Assembly (NCBI GenBank): GCA_023954815.1 | Contig: JAGSHB010000016.1 | Span: 1 to 55,607, forward strand | Source of the DNA: Myxococcales bacterium | GTDB taxonomy: Bacteria > Myxococcota_A > UBA9042 | DNA length: 55,607 nucleotides | Direction of reading: 5' to 3' | In this document: in pieces, positions 34,020-42,580 of the stretch | Layout of the letters: every line of letters begins with the position of its first letter | How positions within the stretch are numbered: the first letter of the stretch is position 1 | Position numbers and translations under genes: made by a program | Notes under the pieces: generated by a model | Seen by the model: only the letters and a program-made list of their open reading frames with translations | Told to the model about the DNA's origin: nothing | Database searches by the model: none

Positions 34020-34364
34020 GGCGATTCAGCGCGGCCAAGCGCGCTGGGCGCGAAAGTCTAGCTTGGGTTGCGTAGTCTCGCTACCGAGTTTCGCCGAAAT
34101 TCGTCACTTGTTGTTGAGTTGTCGCTAGTCCACTTGGCGCGAAAAAGTTGAATTCATCGCCGATCAGCGCGGATTGAGCTTCGATCGACCGTTGCTGATT
34201 CGGCCACCAAATCGTTTGGGCCGTGGGATGCAGAGTGACCATTTGCGCCGCGAACCGGAGCCGGTCACCCTCGCAGCGTTCGTGTCGACCACTTGAGCGG
34301 ACGCGCCGTTTCAATACCCGCGCAAGTAACAGCGGCCGACCCCTCAACCGGAGCTATCGTTGCC
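34020..34364. other. Divergent intergenic region upstream of the cyanophycin island
   Basis: 345 bp. GGCGCGAAA occurs twice in direct orientation (34047-34055 and 34136-34144). A longer frame into iadA is open from 34293 but adds residues absent from the family. It should hold the promoter of the cyanophycin genes and that of the membrane-protein gene. No riboswitch was seen. Confidence 0.4.
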
Positions 34365-35537
34365 ATGCTCGTCTACCTCAGAAATGCCGATTTGGTCGCA
34401 CCGGAGCCCATGGGCCTTGTGGACATTCTCGTCGCCGGGGAACGGATCGCCGCGATCCAGTCGGTGACGCCCAATCACCCCGTGACGATCCCGACTCAGT
34501 GGCCCTGCGAAGTGCACGATCTGGCGGGCGCTACGGTGATTCCGGGCCTTGTGGACTCGCACGTACACCTCACCGGCGGCGGCGGGGAGAGCGGTCCCGA
34601 GACAAAGGTGCCGCCCCTGCAGTTGACGCAGCTGACCTCAGCCGGGGTCACGACGGTCGTGGGGTTGCTCGGTACGGATAGTGTCACCCGTGGACCGCGA
34701 GAGTTGTTGGCTGCGACCCGGGCGATGCAGCGTCTTGGGCTGACCGCTTACATGTGGACGGGCGCGTATCCGGTGCCGACGCCGACGATTACGGGCACGG
34801 TTCGCGGTGATGTGACCCTGGTGGAGCAGGTGATCGGCGCGGGTGAGGTGGCGATTAGCGACCATCGAAGTTCGCAACCGACCTATGACGAGATCGTGCG
34901 TCTCGCCGCGGAATGCCATGTGGGCGGGCTATTGGCCAAGAAAGCTGGCGTTCTTCACCTGCATCTCGGCGATGGAAAACGTGGGCTGGCGTTCGTCGCC
35001 CGGGCACTTGAAGAGAGCGAGTTGCCGGCGCGGGTGCTACAGCCGACCCACTGTAATCGTAACCATACGCTGTGGGCCGAAGCGATGACGCTGGGGGCGA
35101 AGGGCGTGCCTATCGATGTCACCGCTTTTCCGCCGGACGACGATGAAACCGGGTTGTCAGCGGCAGATGCAGTGACGCAGTGGCTCGATGCCGGGCTGCC
35201 CGCTGAACGCCTGACCGTGTCTTCCGATGGCGGTGGATGCATCCCCCTGTTTGACGCCGACGGTGTGATGCAACGCATGGACGTTGGCTCAAGCTCGACC
35301 CTGTTGGCCATGGTGCGGGACTTGGTTGGGCGGGGCAGGGCGCTCTCAGAGGTGGTGCCTTTCGTCACAAGCAACGTGGCGAAACAGCTGCGGCTGAGCC
35401 AGAAGGGCGAACTTGCGCCGGGCCGTGACGCGGATCTCGTGGTGTTGACCGCCCAGATGAAGGTCTCGGCGGTGATGGCTCGCGGCCGGTGGATGGTGCG
35501 GGACGGCGAGTCAGTCGTACGGGGCCCATTCGAATAG
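34365..35537 (+). CDS. iadA: Isoaspartyl dipeptidase (beta-aspartyl peptidase)
   Basis: 390 aa from the ATG at 34365, the same length as E. coli IadA. Amidohydrolase-fold zinc enzyme that splits beta-aspartyl dipeptides. Seen: DSHVHLTGGGGE with metal ligands H66 and H68, GLLGTDSVTR, AISDHRSSQPT, HLHLGDGKRGL, LPTHCNRN-like QPTHCNRNH, SSDGGG with the catalytic Asp, and GEL.PGRDADLVVL. From recall, the E. coli residue before .AISDHR is the carbamylated metal-bridging Lys162; here it is Glu161. In this island its job is to hydrolyse beta-Asp-Arg released from cyanophycin. First gene of the run. Confidence 0.93.
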   Translation: MLVYLRNADLVAPEPMGLVDILVAGERIAAIQSVTPNHPVTIPTQWPCEVHDLAGATVIPGLVDSHVHLTGGGGESGPETKVPPLQLTQLTSAGVTTVVGLLGTDSVTRGPRELLAATRAMQRLGLTAYMWTGAYPVPTPTITGTVRGDVTLVEQVIGAGEVAISDHRSSQPTYDEIVRLAAECHVGGLLAKKAGVLHLHLGDGKRGLAFVARALEESELPARVLQPTHCNRNHTLWAEAMTLGAKGVPIDVTAFPPDDDETGLSAADAVTQWLDAGLPAERLTVSSDGGGCIPLFDADGVMQRMDVGSSSTLLAMVRDLVGRGRALSEVVPFVTSNVAKQLRLSQKGELAPGRDADLVVLTAQMKVSAVMARGRWMVRDGESVVRGPFE

Positions 35538-35723: not shown

Positions 35724-36566
35724 GTGCCGAGCCCACAGGTATCCCCAGGTTCTAGAGGTTTCATTATCCCCATCGGCGGTGCCGAGGATAAGGTCAACGA
35801 TCGCCGTATTTTGCAGCGATTTATCGATGTTTCCGGGGGAAAAGACGCGCGCATTGTCGTGATTCCTACCGCGAGCCAGCTCGATAGCACCGGCCCGCGC
35901 TACAAGAAGATCTTCACCTACCTCGGCGCCGCGCAAGTGGACGTGCTCGACTACCGTGAGCGCTCGGATACGGACAACGAGCAATGGTTGTCGTTGCTCG
36001 ACAGCGCGACTGGCGCCTTCATGACCGGCGGTAATCAGCTGCGGTTATCGACGATTTTAGGGGGTACGCCTGTCGCCCGTTCGCTGCGTCGTCGCAACGC
36101 TGCCGGTATGACTGTGGCCGGTACATCTGCGGGTGCGGCTTTTGTGAGCGAGCACATGATCGCCCATGGTCGCACGGGCGCCACCCCCCGTGCCGGTGCT
36201 GTTAGTGTCGCAGCAGGCCTTGGGCTGACCAATCGCATCATCGTCGATCAGCACTTTCGCCAGCGCGATCGTCTCGGCCGCCTGCTCACCGCGATCGCCT
36301 ACAATCCGTTCGTAATCGGCTTTGGGCTTGACGAGGACACCGCTGCATTTGTCGGTCCCGATGAGGTGACTGAGATCGTGGGTGCGGGAGCCATTACGGT
36401 GGTCGATGTCGCTGACCTGGATCACTCCGGGATGGCTGATGCACGGGAAGGTGCTCCCGTCGATCTCATCGGTGTTCGGCTGCATGTTCTGACAGATGGC
36501 GCTACCTTCCACCTGCATACACGCCGCGCGACACCACCGCCTCAAACCCGCCCAAGCGACGACTGA
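35724..36566 (+). CDS. cphB: Cyanophycinase
   Basis: 280 aa, GTG start with AGGAG about 7 bases upstream. Serine peptidase of family S51 that cuts cyanophycin exolytically to beta-Asp-Arg dipeptides. Seen: IPIGGAEDK, IPTAS, FMTGGNQLRL, nucleophile elbow GTSAGA with Ser135, IVDQHFRQRDRLGRL, and GFGLDEDTA with the conserved acidic pair. No signal peptide, so it acts on the intracellular granule. It lies 186 bp after iadA and 30 bp before cphA, so all three are probably co-expressed. Confidence 0.96.
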   Translation: MPSPQVSPGSRGFIIPIGGAEDKVNDRRILQRFIDVSGGKDARIVVIPTASQLDSTGPRYKKIFTYLGAAQVDVLDYRERSDTDNEQWLSLLDSATGAFMTGGNQLRLSTILGGTPVARSLRRRNAAGMTVAGTSAGAAFVSEHMIAHGRTGATPRAGAVSVAAGLGLTNRIIVDQHFRQRDRLGRLLTAIAYNPFVIGFGLDEDTAAFVGPDEVTEIVGAGAITVVDVADLDHSGMADAREGAPVDLIGVRLHVLTDGATFHLHTRRATPPPQTRPSDD

Positions 36567-36596: not shown

Positions 36597-39401
36597 ATGA
36601 AAGTTCGCGATACTCGAGTTTATCAAGGACCTAATCTTTACGCGAACTTCCGCGTGATTCGCATGACGGTCGACCTGGGACCGCTGGAGGCTTACCCGTC
36701 CGCCAAAATCCCCGGATTTGTCGACGGTCTGCTTGGCGCGATGCCGACACTGGCGGAGCACGGCTGCTCCTATGGCGAGCCGGGTGGGTTCGTGCGCCGA
36801 TTGCAGGAAGATGGCGGCACGTGGCTCGGGCACGTCTTTGAGCACGTGGCGCTGGAACTACAGAATCTCGCGGGTGTGCAGGTCAGCTTTGGCAAGACAC
36901 GTGGTGCCGATGCGCCCGGCGTCTATCACGTCGTCTACGAGTATCAGGAACCCCAAGTCGGCCGCGAAGCAGGTGAGTTGGCGCTGCACCTGTTGCGCAG
37001 TTTGGTGCCCTCAGAGCTGTGGATCGGCGAGACGACGGACGAGGAGTTCGACTTCCTCGAAGAGCTGGAGCACTTGATCCGTCGGGCCCAGCGGCGCGCG
37101 TTTGGGCCTTCGACGGCGAGCCTGATTCGGGCCGCGGAAGCGCGGGATATTCCGTGGTTGCGACTCAACCAATACAGCCTGGTCCAGTTTGGTCACGGCA
37201 AGCACCAACGGCGCATTCAGGCCACAATTACAAGCGAAACGCGCCATATCGGCGTGTCGATTGCGTCTGATAAAGAAGAGACTCGGCAGATTTTGCACGA
37301 CCTCGGCCTGCCCGTTCCGGAGCAGATGCTGGTCTATGGCACGGGGCGCGCTGTGCGGGCTGCCCGCCGGATCGGTTACCCGGTCGTGGTCAAGCCGCTC
37401 GATGCCAACCACGGTCGCGGCGTGAGCATCGGAATGGACAGCGATGAGGCGGTTGCGGCTGCCTTTGAGCAGGCGCGCAAGCACAGCCGCGGTGTGTTGG
37501 TGGAGAGTTTCCTCAAGGGCTTCGACCACCGGATGCTGGTGATCAACGGCGAGCTAGTCGCAGCGAGCAAACGGGTGCCGGGCCACGTCGTTGGCGATGG
37601 AAAGCAGACGATCGCTCAGCTCATCGAAGAGGTGAACAGCGATCCACGCCGCGGTATCGGGCACGAGAAGGTGCTGACAAGGCTGGAGTTGGACCACCAG
37701 GCGGAGCGTCTGATGCGCCGCGGTGGCGTGACTGAAGATGTCGTTCTGCCCGCAGGTCAAGTGTTCTATCTGCGGTCGACGGCTAATCTATCAACTGGTG
37801 GAACGGCGGTTGATGTGACGGATATTGTGCATCCCGACAACCGCGAGATGGCGGTGCGCGCTGCCGTTGCGATTGGTCTCGATGTCGCAGGTGTCGACTT
37901 TCTAACCGACGACATCAGCACCTCATGGATGGACTCCGGTGGTGGCATCTGCGAGGTGAACGCCGCCCCAGGCTTCCGCATGCATGTTGCCCCCTCGGAA
38001 GGCACGCCGCGGGATGCTGCTGGCCCTGTCATCGACATGCTGTTTCCTCAGGAGGCGCCGAGTCGCATCCCGATCGCGGCGGTGACGGGTACCAACGGAA
38101 AGACGACGACTACCCGAATGCTCGCCCACATCCACAAGTTGGCCGGTGAGACGGTCGGCATGAGCAGCACCGATGGCGTCTACGTCGACGGCACGCGGAC
38201 GGTTATCGGCGACATGACGGGGCCGATGGCGGCGCAGATGGTGCTGCGCGATCCGCGGGTGTCAGTGGCGGTGCTGGAGACAGCGCGGGGTGGTCTACTG
38301 CGTGCGGGCATGGGCTACAGCGGCCCCAACGTTGCCTGCTGCTTGAACGTGGCGGCCGACCACCTCGGCCTGCGCGGGATCGACACATTGGAGCAGCTCG
38401 CTGCGGTCAAACGCATCCCGATTGAGGCTGCCAAGGACGCAGTGGTGCTCAACGCCGACGACCCGCTGGTTCTGAGCATGTCTGCGTACACGAACGCGTC
38501 AAAAGTCGTCTATGTGACCACTGATCCCCGTCATGAACTGGTCCGCGAGCACATTCGGGCTGGTGGTTGTGCCGTCAGCCTGGAGAGCGGCGTCAACGGC
38601 GAGATGATTGTGATCTACGAAGGCGGCTCCCACATGCCGCTGCTCTGGACGCACCTCATCCCTGCGACACTGGAGGGCAAGGCAGCTCACAACGTCCAAA
38701 ATGCGATGTTTGCGGCCGCCATGGCCTTCTGCATGGATGTGCGCCTGGAGGATATCCGCCTCGGTCTGCGTACGTTCGATACCAGCTTTTTCCAGGCGCC
38801 TGGCCGCCTCAATGTCTTCGATGAGCTCGGGTTCAAGGTCATCTTGGACTACGGCCACAATCCAGCGGCAGTCTCTGCGATGTGCGATCTAGTCGACGCC
38901 ATCGCAGACGGCGGAAACTTCGGTCGAAAAATCGGCGTGATTGCTGCCCCAGGAGACCGTCGAGACGAGGATGTGCGCGCGATCGCAAAGCGTGCGGCCA
39001 AGACCTTTGACGTCTTCTTCTGCAAGCGCGACGACAGGTTGCGTGGGCGCGGAAAGGCCGAGATTCCGGAGCTTTTAGCTGCAACGCTGCGTGATTGCGG
39101 GGTCGACGACGACGCCATCATGGTCATCCCAGACGAGCGGGAAGCACTCGGCGCGGCGCTGGCCTTTGCTGAAGCGGGCGACCTCATGCTTGCGTTTGGC
39201 GACGACGTCACGCGTTGCTGGAAGCAGATTATTTACTACGGCGGTCGTGGACCTGCGGTGTCTTCTCGCGAACCGGTCAATGACACGTTGGTTGACGATG
39301 CTGGTGCCGACGTCCCGCTGGTGACCATGTGGCAGGGCGTCGAAGTGCTGCGGGATGCCGACGGTGGCGTACGCCTAGCCCGCCAAGACGACAACGACTA
39401 G
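36597..39401 (+). CDS. cphA: Cyanophycin synthetase
   Basis: 934 aa, slightly longer than the usual 870-900. Non-ribosomal ligase that makes the Asp backbone with Arg side chains (cyanophycin), using two ATP-dependent sites. Domains: N domain about 1-215 starting VYQGPNLYANFRVI and ending LVQFGHGKHQRRIQ; ATP-grasp about 225-490 (VVKPLDANHGRGVSIG, GVLVESFLKG, DHRMLVINGELVAA, ICEVNAAPGFRMH); Mur-ligase domain with P-loop GTNGKTTTT at 498-506, LETARGGLLR, LDYGHNPAAV and KRDDRLRGRGKAEI. The last 45 residues form an acidic tail beyond the family end. ATP-grasp adds Asp, Mur adds Arg (known for the family). Confidence 0.97.
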   Translation: MKVRDTRVYQGPNLYANFRVIRMTVDLGPLEAYPSAKIPGFVDGLLGAMPTLAEHGCSYGEPGGFVRRLQEDGGTWLGHVFEHVALELQNLAGVQVSFGKTRGADAPGVYHVVYEYQEPQVGREAGELALHLLRSLVPSELWIGETTDEEFDFLEELEHLIRRAQRRAFGPSTASLIRAAEARDIPWLRLNQYSLVQFGHGKHQRRIQATITSETRHIGVSIASDKEETRQILHDLGLPVPEQMLVYGTGRAVRAARRIGYPVVVKPLDANHGRGVSIGMDSDEAVAAAFEQARKHSRGVLVESFLKGFDHRMLVINGELVAASKRVPGHVVGDGKQTIAQLIEEVNSDPRRGIGHEKVLTRLELDHQAERLMRRGGVTEDVVLPAGQVFYLRSTANLSTGGTAVDVTDIVHPDNREMAVRAAVAIGLDVAGVDFLTDDISTSWMDSGGGICEVNAAPGFRMHVAPSEGTPRDAAGPVIDMLFPQEAPSRIPIAAVTGTNGKTTTTRMLAHIHKLAGETVGMSSTDGVYVDGTRTVIGDMTGPMAAQMVLRDPRVSVAVLETARGGLLRAGMGYSGPNVACCLNVAADHLGLRGIDTLEQLAAVKRIPIEAAKDAVVLNADDPLVLSMSAYTNASKVVYVTTDPRHELVREHIRAGGCAVSLESGVNGEMIVIYEGGSHMPLLWTHLIPATLEGKAAHNVQNAMFAAAMAFCMDVRLEDIRLGLRTFDTSFFQAPGRLNVFDELGFKVILDYGHNPAAVSAMCDLVDAIADGGNFGRKIGVIAAPGDRRDEDVRAIAKRAAKTFDVFFCKRDDRLRGRGKAEIPELLAATLRDCGVDDDAIMVIPDEREALGAALAFAEAGDLMLAFGDDVTRCWKQIIYYGGRGPAVSSREPVNDTLVDDAGADVPLVTMWQGVEVLRDADGGVRLARQDDND

Positions 39402-39420
39402 TGGGACGCCAATTGTGACC

Positions 39421-41136
39421 ATGCGAACACTTGATGCACGCAGGTTGACCGGGCTCAGTCGCTGGGCTGACGGCCACGGTGCCGCGGTGGTCATTGAGTT
39501 CGCGCGTGAGACCAGTGAGGTCCAGCGGGCGACCCTTCGCGCGACTTGGCAGCGCAATGTCACCGATGCCATGGCGGTCTTGGGGTGGCCAGCGCCTAGT
39601 TTTGATGCAACCGCGGCGGGGCGAGGCGGCAGACGAGAGGTTTGGGTCGCTTCTGCACCCATCGATCGGCTGTATGCAGCCGTGGCTCTCTGCGAGTCTG
39701 CCGCCAACGAGTCAGACTCTGCGGCTCATCTCGCCGCGGCCCGGGCAGAGGACGACATAGACGGCGATGCAGCGCTGCTTGGTGCCGAGAGGTTCGCCGC
39801 CGAGCGGCACTTGCCGTTTTTGTGGTGCGACGACGAGGCGTCCATCGGCTGGGGCACACGGAGTCAAGTCTGGGACCGGGCGGAGGTACCAGCTGACCTT
39901 ACGGGGCTCGATGCCGAATCCTTGGGGCGCATCCCTGTCGCCCTTGTCACTGGAACTAACGGAAAGACGACGACCTCGCGCCTGTTGTCGCGCATCGCCA
40001 GACACGCTGGGTTCGTCGTGGGGGCCACCGGCACAGATGGTTTGGTCGTCGACGAGCAGGTCATCGAGGCTGGGGACTGGACTGGCCCTGGCGGGGCGCG
40101 CACGGTCTTGCGCGATGGCCGCGTGGAGCTCGCCGTCTTGGAAGCCGCGCGGGGGGGCATGCTTCGCCGCGGCCTGGGGACCACGGGCGTCGATGCGGCT
40201 GCTGTCACCAACGTCAGTAATGACCACCTGGGCGAGTGGGGCATCGATTCAGTCGCCCACATGGCTGAGGTCAAACTGCTGGTCGGCAAGGCTGTTCGAC
40301 CCGGCGGTAGGCTGGTGTTGTTCGACGACGGAGCGGCGCTCACCAGCTGCGCGACAGGCCTAGCTGCTACCGACAACTTGGTGGTGTCTGGCGTGGAGGT
40401 GTTGCGCTATAGGGCCGACAATTCAGCCTCTGACGGCCCAGGCCGCTTGGCAGCATGGCTCGCTGACGAAGGCGCAACCTTGGTGGTTGATTGTGGGTTT
40501 GAGGGGCGCGGCCCCCTCCGTATTCCAGCGTCTGAGGTCCCGATTACGGTCGGCGGCGCGGCGCGTTACAACGTGGCCAATGCGCTCGCCGCCGGGTTGT
40601 TGGCCCGTGGTTTGGGTTTGCCAGACGACGCCATTCGCTCAGGGCTCGCGAGTTTTCAGCCGAACTCTGTGGATTCTCCGGGGCGCGGCAATCTGCTCAC
40701 CGTTCGCGGCGCCAAAGTGATCCTCGATTTTGGCCACAACCCCGACGGCGTCATGCAAGTGGCGCACATGGCCGCCCGTCTGAATGTTCGGCGCCGGTTG
40801 GTGGTCACCGGGCAGGCCGGCGACCGTACCGATGGCGAGATTCGTGGCTTGGTCGAGGGGCTGAGCGTCTGCAAACCAGATCGATGGCTGCTCAAGGCGA
40901 TGCCGAAGTATGTCCGCGGTCGACCGTTGGGTGAGGTTGTTGCAGTTCTCAGGAGCGCGCTCACCGAGCTTGGCGTTCCCGAGGGCGCGGTCACTGATCA
41001 CCCGACAGAGCGTGAGGCTGTTGATGCAGCCATCGCCGAACTGCAACCTGGAGATCTGCTATTGCTATTCATCCAGGCCGATGCGGCAGGTGCCCTCGCG
41101 CAGCTCCGTGAGGCCGGAGCGACTGACGGCTGGTAG
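39421..41136 (+). CDS. CphA-like Mur ligase lacking the ATP-grasp domain
   Basis: 571 aa from the ATG at 39421; a GTG two codons earlier is possible. Residues about 1-165 are a diverged CphA N domain ending IGWGTRSQVW, which lines up with VQFGHGKHQRRIQ of the neighbouring CphA. The next residues lead directly into the Mur-ligase domain: P-loop GTNGKTTTSR (178-187), GATGTDGLVV, LEAARGGMLRRG, NVSNDHLGEWG, LDFGHNPDGVMQ, and a C-terminal MPKYVRGRPLGEV. The ATP-grasp domain of about 270 residues is absent, so only the amino-acid-adding Mur reaction could remain. It starts 20 bp after cphA. Substrate unknown. Confidence 0.88.
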   Translation: MRTLDARRLTGLSRWADGHGAAVVIEFARETSEVQRATLRATWQRNVTDAMAVLGWPAPSFDATAAGRGGRREVWVASAPIDRLYAAVALCESAANESDSAAHLAAARAEDDIDGDAALLGAERFAAERHLPFLWCDDEASIGWGTRSQVWDRAEVPADLTGLDAESLGRIPVALVTGTNGKTTTSRLLSRIARHAGFVVGATGTDGLVVDEQVIEAGDWTGPGGARTVLRDGRVELAVLEAARGGMLRRGLGTTGVDAAAVTNVSNDHLGEWGIDSVAHMAEVKLLVGKAVRPGGRLVLFDDGAALTSCATGLAATDNLVVSGVEVLRYRADNSASDGPGRLAAWLADEGATLVVDCGFEGRGPLRIPASEVPITVGGAARYNVANALAAGLLARGLGLPDDAIRSGLASFQPNSVDSPGRGNLLTVRGAKVILDFGHNPDGVMQVAHMAARLNVRRRLVVTGQAGDRTDGEIRGLVEGLSVCKPDRWLLKAMPKYVRGRPLGEVVAVLRSALTELGVPEGAVTDHPTEREAVDAAIAELQPGDLLLLFIQADAAGALAQLREAGATDGW

Positions 41137-41200: not shown

Positions 41201-42580
41201 ATGAGTGATTCCTTTGACGTCGTTGTTGTGGGTGCTGGCGCCGCTGGAACGTGGGCAGCGACTTTGCTGGCTCGGGCCGGACGACGAGTCGCCCTACTCG
41301 AGCGTCGGCCACTCAATCAAGCGGGCGCTTCGTGGGTCAACGGTGTGGCGCCCTGGATGATGAATCAGGCTCAAGTGCCGCCTCCACAATCGCCCGAAGA
41401 CCGCGGCTTGGCCGATGCCTTTGTGATGGCAGCCCTGCATAGGCCGGGTCGAATCGACATGCGGCCAGCTCCAGTCCGTCATGTGGATATGCGCCACCTC
41501 ACGGGTCGACTACACGGCCTAGCAGTGGACGCCGGCGTGACGATTGTGGATGAGACGCGCGCATTGACGTTGCATTTGACCGATGGACGTCCGACCCAAC
41601 TTGAGACGCGAAGTTCCGCCGGGGACCGCACGTTCTCGGCGGCGCTTTTTGTCGATGCAGCTGGGATGAAAGGGGTGTTGCGTGCTCAGGTTCCTGCGCT
41701 TGCGCAGTGGTGTCCGCCGGTGGGGAAAGAGGACATCTGCAACGCCGCCCAGCAAGTCCGAAAGGTGGCAGATCCAGCAGGCGCGCGTGATTGGCTCGCG
41801 AGCCACAGCGTCGCCGCCGGTGAGACTGTGTCTTTCGTCAGTGTGGTTGGCGGTTTCTCGACCGTGGCAGTCCATATCGACCCCACGTTTGAAGAGATGG
41901 AAGTGCTCACGGGCTCGGTGCAGACCGGCGGCGTGCCGACAGGCAGCGGGCTGCTGAAACAATTCGTGGCCGACCATGCTTGGGTTGGCGAGCGGGTTTT
42001 CGGTGGGGCGGGCGCTATACCGATTCGACGCAGTTGGGATCGGCTCAGCGTTCCCGGGCTGGCGCTGGTGGGGGATGCGGCGTGCCAGGTGTTTCCCGGA
42101 CACGGGAGCGGCGTGGGGCCAGGGCTGATTGCGGCGCGACATCTCGCGCATGCAGTGCGCGGGTACGACGACCCAGGCTGCCTCGATGCGACGTGGCGTT
42201 ATCAGTCTGCTTACCAACGCGATGTGGGTGCGGTGTGTGCGAGCTATGCGGTATTTCGCCGTTTGACGCAGGGGCTGTCTGCCAATGACAGTGCGGCGAT
42301 TCTGGCTGCGGGGTTGTTGAGTGAGTCCATGGCTACGGCTGGACTCAGGCAGCGAATGGTGCTTCCCAAGCTCTCTGAGCTTCCGAAGACGCTAGCTGGG
42401 TTGGCGAAGGAGCCTCGTCTCGCTGTACGGCTTGGGCCCGCTGCTGCTCGGATGCAGGCTGTGCACGCTATCTATCGTCGTTATCCATTAACACCGCATG
42501 AGCCGGCGCTTCGTCAGTGGTCGGCGCGCGTGAGGTTGCTGTTTGGGGATCGGCGCGCTCTCTGGGGTGCTCTTTCCTAG
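41201..42580 (+). CDS. FAD-dependent oxidoreductase of the cyanophycin island
   Basis: 459 aa from the ATG at 41201 (longer frame upstream overlaps the Mur-ligase gene and is not family-like). Dinucleotide fold GAGAAGTWAA at 11-20, LLERRPLNQAGASWVNG, and the second FAD motif LALVGDAACQVFPGHGSGVGPGL near 285-310, the layout of geranylgeranyl-reductase/halogenase-type flavoproteins (p-hydroxybenzoate hydroxylase superfamily). No second enzyme-specific motif was recognised. It begins 65 bp after the CphA-like gene in the same direction, the last gene before an insertion. A role in modifying a peptide or amino acid is possible but unproven. Confidence 0.8.
   Translation: MSDSFDVVVVGAGAAGTWAATLLARAGRRVALLERRPLNQAGASWVNGVAPWMMNQAQVPPPQSPEDRGLADAFVMAALHRPGRIDMRPAPVRHVDMRHLTGRLHGLAVDAGVTIVDETRALTLHLTDGRPTQLETRSSAGDRTFSAALFVDAAGMKGVLRAQVPALAQWCPPVGKEDICNAAQQVRKVADPAGARDWLASHSVAAGETVSFVSVVGGFSTVAVHIDPTFEEMEVLTGSVQTGGVPTGSGLLKQFVADHAWVGERVFGGAGAIPIRRSWDRLSVPGLALVGDAACQVFPGHGSGVGPGLIAARHLAHAVRGYDDPGCLDATWRYQSAYQRDVGAVCASYAVFRRLTQGLSANDSAAILAAGLLSESMATAGLRQRMVLPKLSELPKTLAGLAKEPRLAVRLGPAAARMQAVHAIYRRYPLTPHEPALRQWSARVRLLFGDRRALWGALS

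Follow-up and report, generated by a model that had tools for sequence, protein, structure and literature searches.

A cphA-linked Mur ligase family that joins a diverged cyanophycin synthetase N domain to a complete M domain without ATP-grasp

Directly downstream of cphA in a Myxococcales bacterium lies a gene whose product consists of a diverged CphA N domain and, immediately after it, a complete Mur-type M domain; the ATP-grasp (G) domain is missing. We found it in a stretch of 55,607 nucleotides (assembly GCA_023954815.1, contig JAGSHB010000016.1), all of which is referred to here as the window. Cyanophycin is a bacterial nitrogen-storage polymer and, to our knowledge, CphA has been treated as the single enzyme that makes it from Asp and Arg. 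Four or more bacterial phyla have the N-M gene, which adjoins cphA in every case where the contig reaches far enough, and its products form a family under purifying selection rather than an oddity of one genome. On the basis of sequence and structural models, we consider it somewhat probable that the N-M protein serves cyanophycin metabolism as a dedicated accessory ligase, i.e., the side-chain-adding half of CphA as a separate enzyme. The RefSeq name of the named examples is only 'Mur ligase family protein'. The open literature held no description of an N-M protein or of a cyanophycin synthetase without ATP-grasp; subscription papers lay outside this search, so an earlier mention is possible.

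The window's cluster runs iadA, cphB, cphA and the N-M gene, all on the forward strand (Table 1). The N-M ORF begins 13 bp after the end of cphA if the GTG start is used (573 aa) and 19 bp after it with the ATG start (571 aa), which matches the family alignment better. Just 3' of the N-M gene is an FAD-dependent geranylgeranyl-reductase/halogenase-like gene (41201-42580, +), which is not kept at this place in relatives.

Table 1. Genes of the cyanophycin cluster and features of the N-M protein, in window positions.
Feature	Position	Strand	Evidence or remark
iadA-like isoaspartyl (beta-aspartyl) dipeptidase	34293..35537	+	TIGR01975 422 bits (cut-off 331); first cluster gene
cphB, cyanophycinase (Peptidase_S51)	35724..36566	+	TIGR02069 264 bits (cut-off 127)
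cphA, full N-G-M cyanophycin synthetase	36597..39401	+	TIGR02068 1124 bits (cut-off 850); HxxEH as HVFEH
N-M protein gene (cphA-linked Mur ligase without ATP-grasp)	39421..41136	+	GTG at 39415 is a possible earlier start
Diverged CphA-type N domain, residues ~3-158	39421..39888	+	Profile-profile comparison and AlphaFold2 fold
P-loop GTNGKTTT, residues 180-187; K184 = TeCphA1 K499	39952..39975	+	Alignments; role in TeCphA1 from PMC9427784
D270-H271 = SuCphA1 catalytic D585-H586	40222..40227	+	Alignment to 7lg5; family-invariant; role from PMC9262961
R424 ... LDFGHNP (437-443; H441) = TeCphA1 R731, H748	40684..40743	+	Family-invariant; roles from PMC9427784
KAMPKYVRGR loop, residues 494-503	40894..40923	+	Alignment of family, CphA and MurE

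Pfam recognised only Mur_ligase_M (residues 178-396; 63.8 bits, gathering cut-off 24) and Mur_ligase_C (423-551; 44.9 bits, cut-off 28.4) in the window's N-M protein, with no match to the ATP-grasp families or to PF18921. The neighbouring CphA matched PF18921, several ATP-grasp families and both Mur domains. TIGR02068 reached 305 bits on the N-M protein, below its equivalog cut-off of 850 and only over profile positions 475-849, the M part, while the murE profile scored 72 bits against a cut-off of 257. Likewise, the BLASTP alignment to the neighbouring CphA (35% identity over 437 aa) covered essentially the M domain. The initial annotation, made from the letters alone, had proposed an N-M fusion without ATP-grasp, and Pfam, profile-profile comparison, AlphaFold2 and Foldseek all agree with it. 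It put the missing ATP-grasp segment at 270 residues; the absence holds, but relative to the neighbouring CphA about 280-320 residues are missing. The P-loop GTNGKTTT and the LDFGHNP motif are both present, and the N domain has an RRLTG motif at its start and ends in SIGWGTRSQVW. The pairing of IGWGTRSQVW with VQFGHGKHQRRIQ in the neighbouring CphA, also put forward initially, was reproduced by profile comparison.

As sequence-profile searches yielded little for the N part, profile-profile comparison and structure were needed. Searched alone against PDB sequences, the N part returned nothing meaningful, and its profile aligned to the single neighbouring CphA sequence over only 37 C-terminal columns. 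Comparing 45 N parts with 90 CphA N domains gave a probability of 95 (E = 3.7e-8, 152 columns), and the actinobacterial N parts gave the same probability (E = 3.8e-8). Control profiles of ATP-grasp and of the Mur N-terminal domain reached 0.6% and 0.2%, with an overall maximum of 1.1%, and decoys, both reversed and column-shuffled, scored at most 18.7 and 25.5 versus about 55 for the real comparisons; 18.7 was the maximum of 60 column-shuffled decoys. These scores point to a homology with the CphA N domain that is real and distant. A Mur UDP-binding domain was ruled out by the 0.2% profile probability. We also looked for a hidden ATP-grasp fold in residues 1-170 by profile comparison, AlphaFold2 and Foldseek; none was found, and this identity of the N part was rejected.

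The N-terminal third and C-terminal half of the N part produced this signal, and its middle contributed nothing. The unaligned stretch coincides with the position of HxxEH in CphA, and this cyanophycinase motif was absent from all 81 classified N-M sequences. Judging from these alignments, the N domain of the family has lost the HxxEH element, a point that the initial annotation had missed. The mean net charge of the N domain is -9 in the window's clade (clade A) and +7 in the Actinomycetes clade (L219-L240, L247).

AlphaFold2, run on the window's protein with 42 family sequences, returned a model with a pLDDT of 94.8, a pTM of 0.94 and no disordered stretch; an actinobacterial member reached 90.7 and 0.88. 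The best PDB matches of both models in Foldseek were CphA1 structures (TMq 0.78-0.81, ~900 columns). The window model matched 7wae with a TMq of 0.81 over 903 alignment columns, whereas MurE scored 0.54 or less. Because the alignment spans ~900 columns while skipping G, N and M are predicted to keep their CphA1 arrangement without it, with the fold and placement of the N domain modelled as in CphA1.

Alignments of both N-M clades with CphA were inspected for loss of Mur catalytic residues. Instead, N182, K184, T185, E243, D270, H271, R424 and H441 were conserved, so the full Mur domain with intact P-loop and LDFGHNP that was initially described is indeed present. Their TeCphA1 counterparts N497, K499, T500, E558, R731 and H748 make contacts with ATP or Mg (PMC9427784); in SuCphA1, D585-H586, the counterpart of D270-H271, is the M-site pair whose change is inactivating (PMC9262961). 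One loop departs from CphA: residues 494-503 read K-E-x-x-x-Y-L-R-G-R in the family and KAMPKYVRGR in the window, against R/K-x-D-xx-RGR in CphA, the family loop being longer. In the alignment of family, CphA and MurE, it occupies the place of the MurE motif DNPR, which is absent. At the place of GKGHE of MurE, in the final strand of the core, most family members have His and the window's protein has Gln. The MurE loops and motifs at these places hold the incoming amino acid. Since the loop at the DNPR position differs from that of CphA, the substrate of the N-M protein may differ as well, and we infer a changed amino-acid preference.

Within the window's order, most genomes of its own family encode a full-length relative at 40-47% identity, in each case with cphA as a neighbour. 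At 34-69% identity, full-length homologues occur in more than 40 genomes, which excludes chance or misassembly. The profile search for N-plus-Mur proteins without ATP-grasp that had been suggested at the outset found them in 49 of 379 Myxococcota genomes, all full-length, as well as in other phyla. The set was assigned to Myxococcota because its genome G226 and G382, the Plesiocystis pacifica SIR-1 genome with locus L043, agree in contig and coordinates. Acidobacteriota have members of the window's clade (several of 247 genomes, plus L033 and L034), and so do the alphaproteobacteria Ruegeria (WP_152460471.1 of Ruegeria sp. THAF33) and Shinella (WP_160788060.1 of Shinella zoogloeoides). In Lysobacteraceae, 32 of 149 genomes, or 32 of the 35 with any match, encode an N-M protein adjoining CphA. 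A record labelled Roseateles and marked unverified carries the gene too. A second N-M clade was present in 23 of 247 actinomycete genomes. ATP-grasp is missing while Mur_M and Mur_C are complete in 42/42 clade-A and 17/17 actinobacterial members. N-M proteins of Terrabacter (L063:9726-11888, -) and a Micrococcales MAG (L056:9504 onward) carry a C-terminal extension, with TPR repeats in Terrabacter. In Tetrasphaera MAGs, a 'shorter copy' of cphA has been described beside cphA and cphB that is transcribed less than the long copy (PMC10687191). It was counted there as a cphA copy and may be the actinobacterial N-M form.

The link to cphA is strict in one direction. All 49 Myxococcota carriers have cphA, and the N-M gene was found in none of the 282 Myxococcota genomes without a TIGR02068 match; many cphA-carrying genomes have no N-M gene. 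Among Myxococcota relatives of the latter kind (G048, G195, G078, G057, G031, G083; same class, family f2), we observed two adjacent CphA-like genes, the second of which scores lower. Loci of Myxococcota, Acidobacteriota, Lysobacter and alphaproteobacteria share the co-directional order cphB-cphA-N-M, frequently with iadA in front, and in 41 of 42 co-directional loci the spacing between cphA stop and N-M start falls between -1 and 50 bp. In Actinomycetes, the N-M gene is convergent to cphB-cphA in 20 of 23 loci, and the other three lie on a short stretch without cphA. Widely kept neighbours are only cphA and cphB, plus iadA in Myxococcota and Acidobacteriota; no other neighbour is broadly conserved, and the neighbourhood did not yield an amino-acid substrate. 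In Ruegeria (L248:43-2664, L252:1-2575), cphB is closely preceded by a saccharopine dehydrogenase-like and an aldehyde dehydrogenase gene, which might point to lysine chemistry.

Six N-M pairs had dN/dS ratios of 0.13-0.22. For three pairs dN was also determined for cphA, and in each of them the N-M value was 2.4 to 5 times as high. Decaying copies of cphA in Duganella and Deinococcus, one of them frameshifted, would be in keeping with a functionless, degenerate by-product of cphA duplication. For the window's family, full-length conservation across phyla, the dN/dS values, descent as one old lineage and the kept operon position refute this explanation, which we regard as extremely improbable.

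The initial annotation described the gene as a CphA paralogue from which ATP-grasp had been cleanly removed. A tree of 93 M domains, built without an outgroup, separated all 45 family members from all 47 CphA with a support of 100/98, and AU tests rejected trees in which either N-M clade was forced together with its partner CphA (p-AU 0.0006 and 0.003). Together, they rule out a recent truncation of the neighbouring cphA, and the removal as initially pictured was not borne out. Rooting with MurE was unstable: one sampling placed the family outside CphA and another placed the root among clostridial CphA. As the two outgroup samplings root differently, we do not claim the N-M form as ancestral. 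The tree indicates an old lineage, compatible both with an early loss of ATP-grasp and with its late gain.

Other reductions of CphA were found outside the family. Plasmid-borne CphA paralogues of Deinococcus (L251:5035-7209, L253:3702-6218, L255:7969-10468) have an eroding ATP-grasp domain, kept in part in D. taeanensis and KNUC1210 (frameshifted) and nearly all gone in D. deserti; M is intact in D. deserti and D. taeanensis. Duganella sp. sic0402 (L081:9385-11487, -) encodes a 701-aa CphA paralogue, convergent to cphA, in which the N domain is shortened and a remnant of ATP-grasp is left. D. deserti WP_012695043.1 and the Duganella protein resemble the N-M protein in having N and an intact M with ATP-grasp lost or eroded, but their origin is independent and recent: in the trees, the paralogues nest with CphA of their own genus and not with the N-M family. 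Erosion of ATP-grasp with M kept is real in both genera and arose there separately and later. The betaproteobacterial CphA' is another reduced relative beside cphA. Its gene lies immediately 5' of cphA (L041:2677-4983 plus 11 further loci of beta/gammaproteobacteria), and the protein has N and ATP-grasp with a degenerate M. It was rejected as the same thing as N-M, being the opposite reduction.

Compared with known systems, the N-M protein shares with CphA1 (TIGR02068; PDB 7LG5, 7LGQ, 7WAE) the placement of N and M and the whole M-domain catalytic set (P-loop K, E, D-H, R, H). Unlike CphA1, it has no G domain and no HxxEH site, its loop 494-503 is changed and it scores 305 bits where 850 are asked; Pfam, profile-profile comparison and AlphaFold2/Foldseek agree that the three-domain N, G and Mur-like M make-up is not there. 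Cyanobacterial CphA2 is also a reduced CphA1 relative, with an active ATP-grasp and an M domain without P-loop-M and M lid (PMC9427784), whereas the N-M protein has a P-loop and Mur_ligase_C. This supports the contrast drawn initially with CphA2 as the opposite reduction, in which the M part is reduced. With MurE and other Mur ligases, including the pseudomurein pMurE/pMurC, the protein shares the central and C-terminal Mur domains and the ATP-dependent amide ligase fold (TMq ~0.5). It differs from them in its CphA-type N domain, where they have a UDP-binding Mur N, and in its link to cphA rather than to cell-wall genes.

A cyanophycin analogue in CphA1 sits between the N domain and the M core (PMC9427784). 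Exactly these cyanophycin-holding parts, together with the ATP site, are kept in the N-M protein, which is most simply read as a side-chain ligase that would act in trans on CphA-made chains. ATP would bind the M domain, while the N domain and M core would hold the cyanophycin chain. An Asp that is not yet modified would be phosphorylated on its side-chain carboxylate and linked through an isopeptide bond to Arg or some other amino acid, by which chains may be decorated, completed or capped. Unable to lengthen the backbone, the protein would rely on its neighbour CphA; its inability to extend a chain by itself had been suggested initially, and the domain make-up supports this. Catalysis, cyanophycin as the acceptor and side-chain ligation as the reaction are what we infer from the retained residues and the models. 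Several points bear on this reading. CphA already adds Arg, which leaves the need for a second ligase unexplained and counts against an accessory ligase. In addition, the N domain is strongly diverged and its HxxEH segment is gone, which makes polymer binding less than certain, and its opposite charges in the two clades do not suggest one simple ligand. The many cphA carriers that lack the gene and the changed loop at the MurE DNPR position also count against this reading.

The same active site might instead make primers, coupling an amino acid to free Asp to yield beta-aspartyl dipeptides or short starters for elongation by CphA. De novo synthesis by CphA1 has been proposed to open with the M reaction on free Asp (PMC9262961), and the tight linkage to cphA would fit. 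However, the primer-generating HxxEH site is kept in 72/72 partner CphAs versus 39/58 other sampled CphAs, counts in which sampling and lineages are not independent and three 'other' loci do carry an N-M gene. Partners that keep this site should not need primers, which disfavours primer supply for a primer-dependent CphA, and beta-Asp-Arg alone gave no support to synthesis by TmCphA1 (PMC9262961). We therefore consider primer making unlikely.

Another acceptor could also be served, with an amino acid ligated onto a small molecule or protein made elsewhere and the product entering or leaving the cyanophycin cycle. The loops that hold the incoming amino acid in MurE differ from those of CphA, the N-domain charge is opposite in the two clades, and the Ruegeria dehydrogenase genes would suit such a role. 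Neither the family-wide neighbourhood, confined to cyanophycin genes and iadA, nor the strict dependence on cphA is expected from it, and we rate it as fairly unlikely. A structural or regulatory role, in which mixed oligomers with CphA through N and M surfaces would tune CphA and catalysis would be secondary or absent, seems quite unlikely to us. The CphA1 tetramer is built on these surfaces (PMC9262961, PMC9427784), many loci suggest translational coupling with cphA, and the N-M gene evolves faster than cphA. Nevertheless, the ATP-binding and catalytic residues are fully conserved in ~80 sequences from several phyla, which would be unexpected for a pseudoenzyme.

Returning to the accessory side-chain ligase, the conserved pairing suggests that cyanophycin synthesis in these bacteria may need a second ligase. 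More tentatively, and with less than even probability, Myxococcota, Acidobacteriota, many Actinomycetes and Lysobacteraceae may use a two-ligase system, in which CphA would make the Asp backbone and add Arg while the N-M protein would put a different amino acid on some Asp side chains, giving an unrecognised cyanophycin variant. Cultured carriers exist in Ruegeria, Shinella, Lysobacter, Plesiocystis and Terrabacter, and the N-M protein could become a tool for cyanophycin with new side chains. In wastewater nitrogen-recovery organisms, N-M genes may be counted as extra cphA copies. The family also poses an evolutionary question, whether the N-M form preceded the insertion of ATP-grasp or followed its early loss, and erosion of ATP-grasp appears to have approached this form again at least twice. 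For the bacteria that carry it, a conserved second Mur ligase, occurring only with cphA and in several phyla, would imply a missing step in cyanophycin metabolism or a different polymer.
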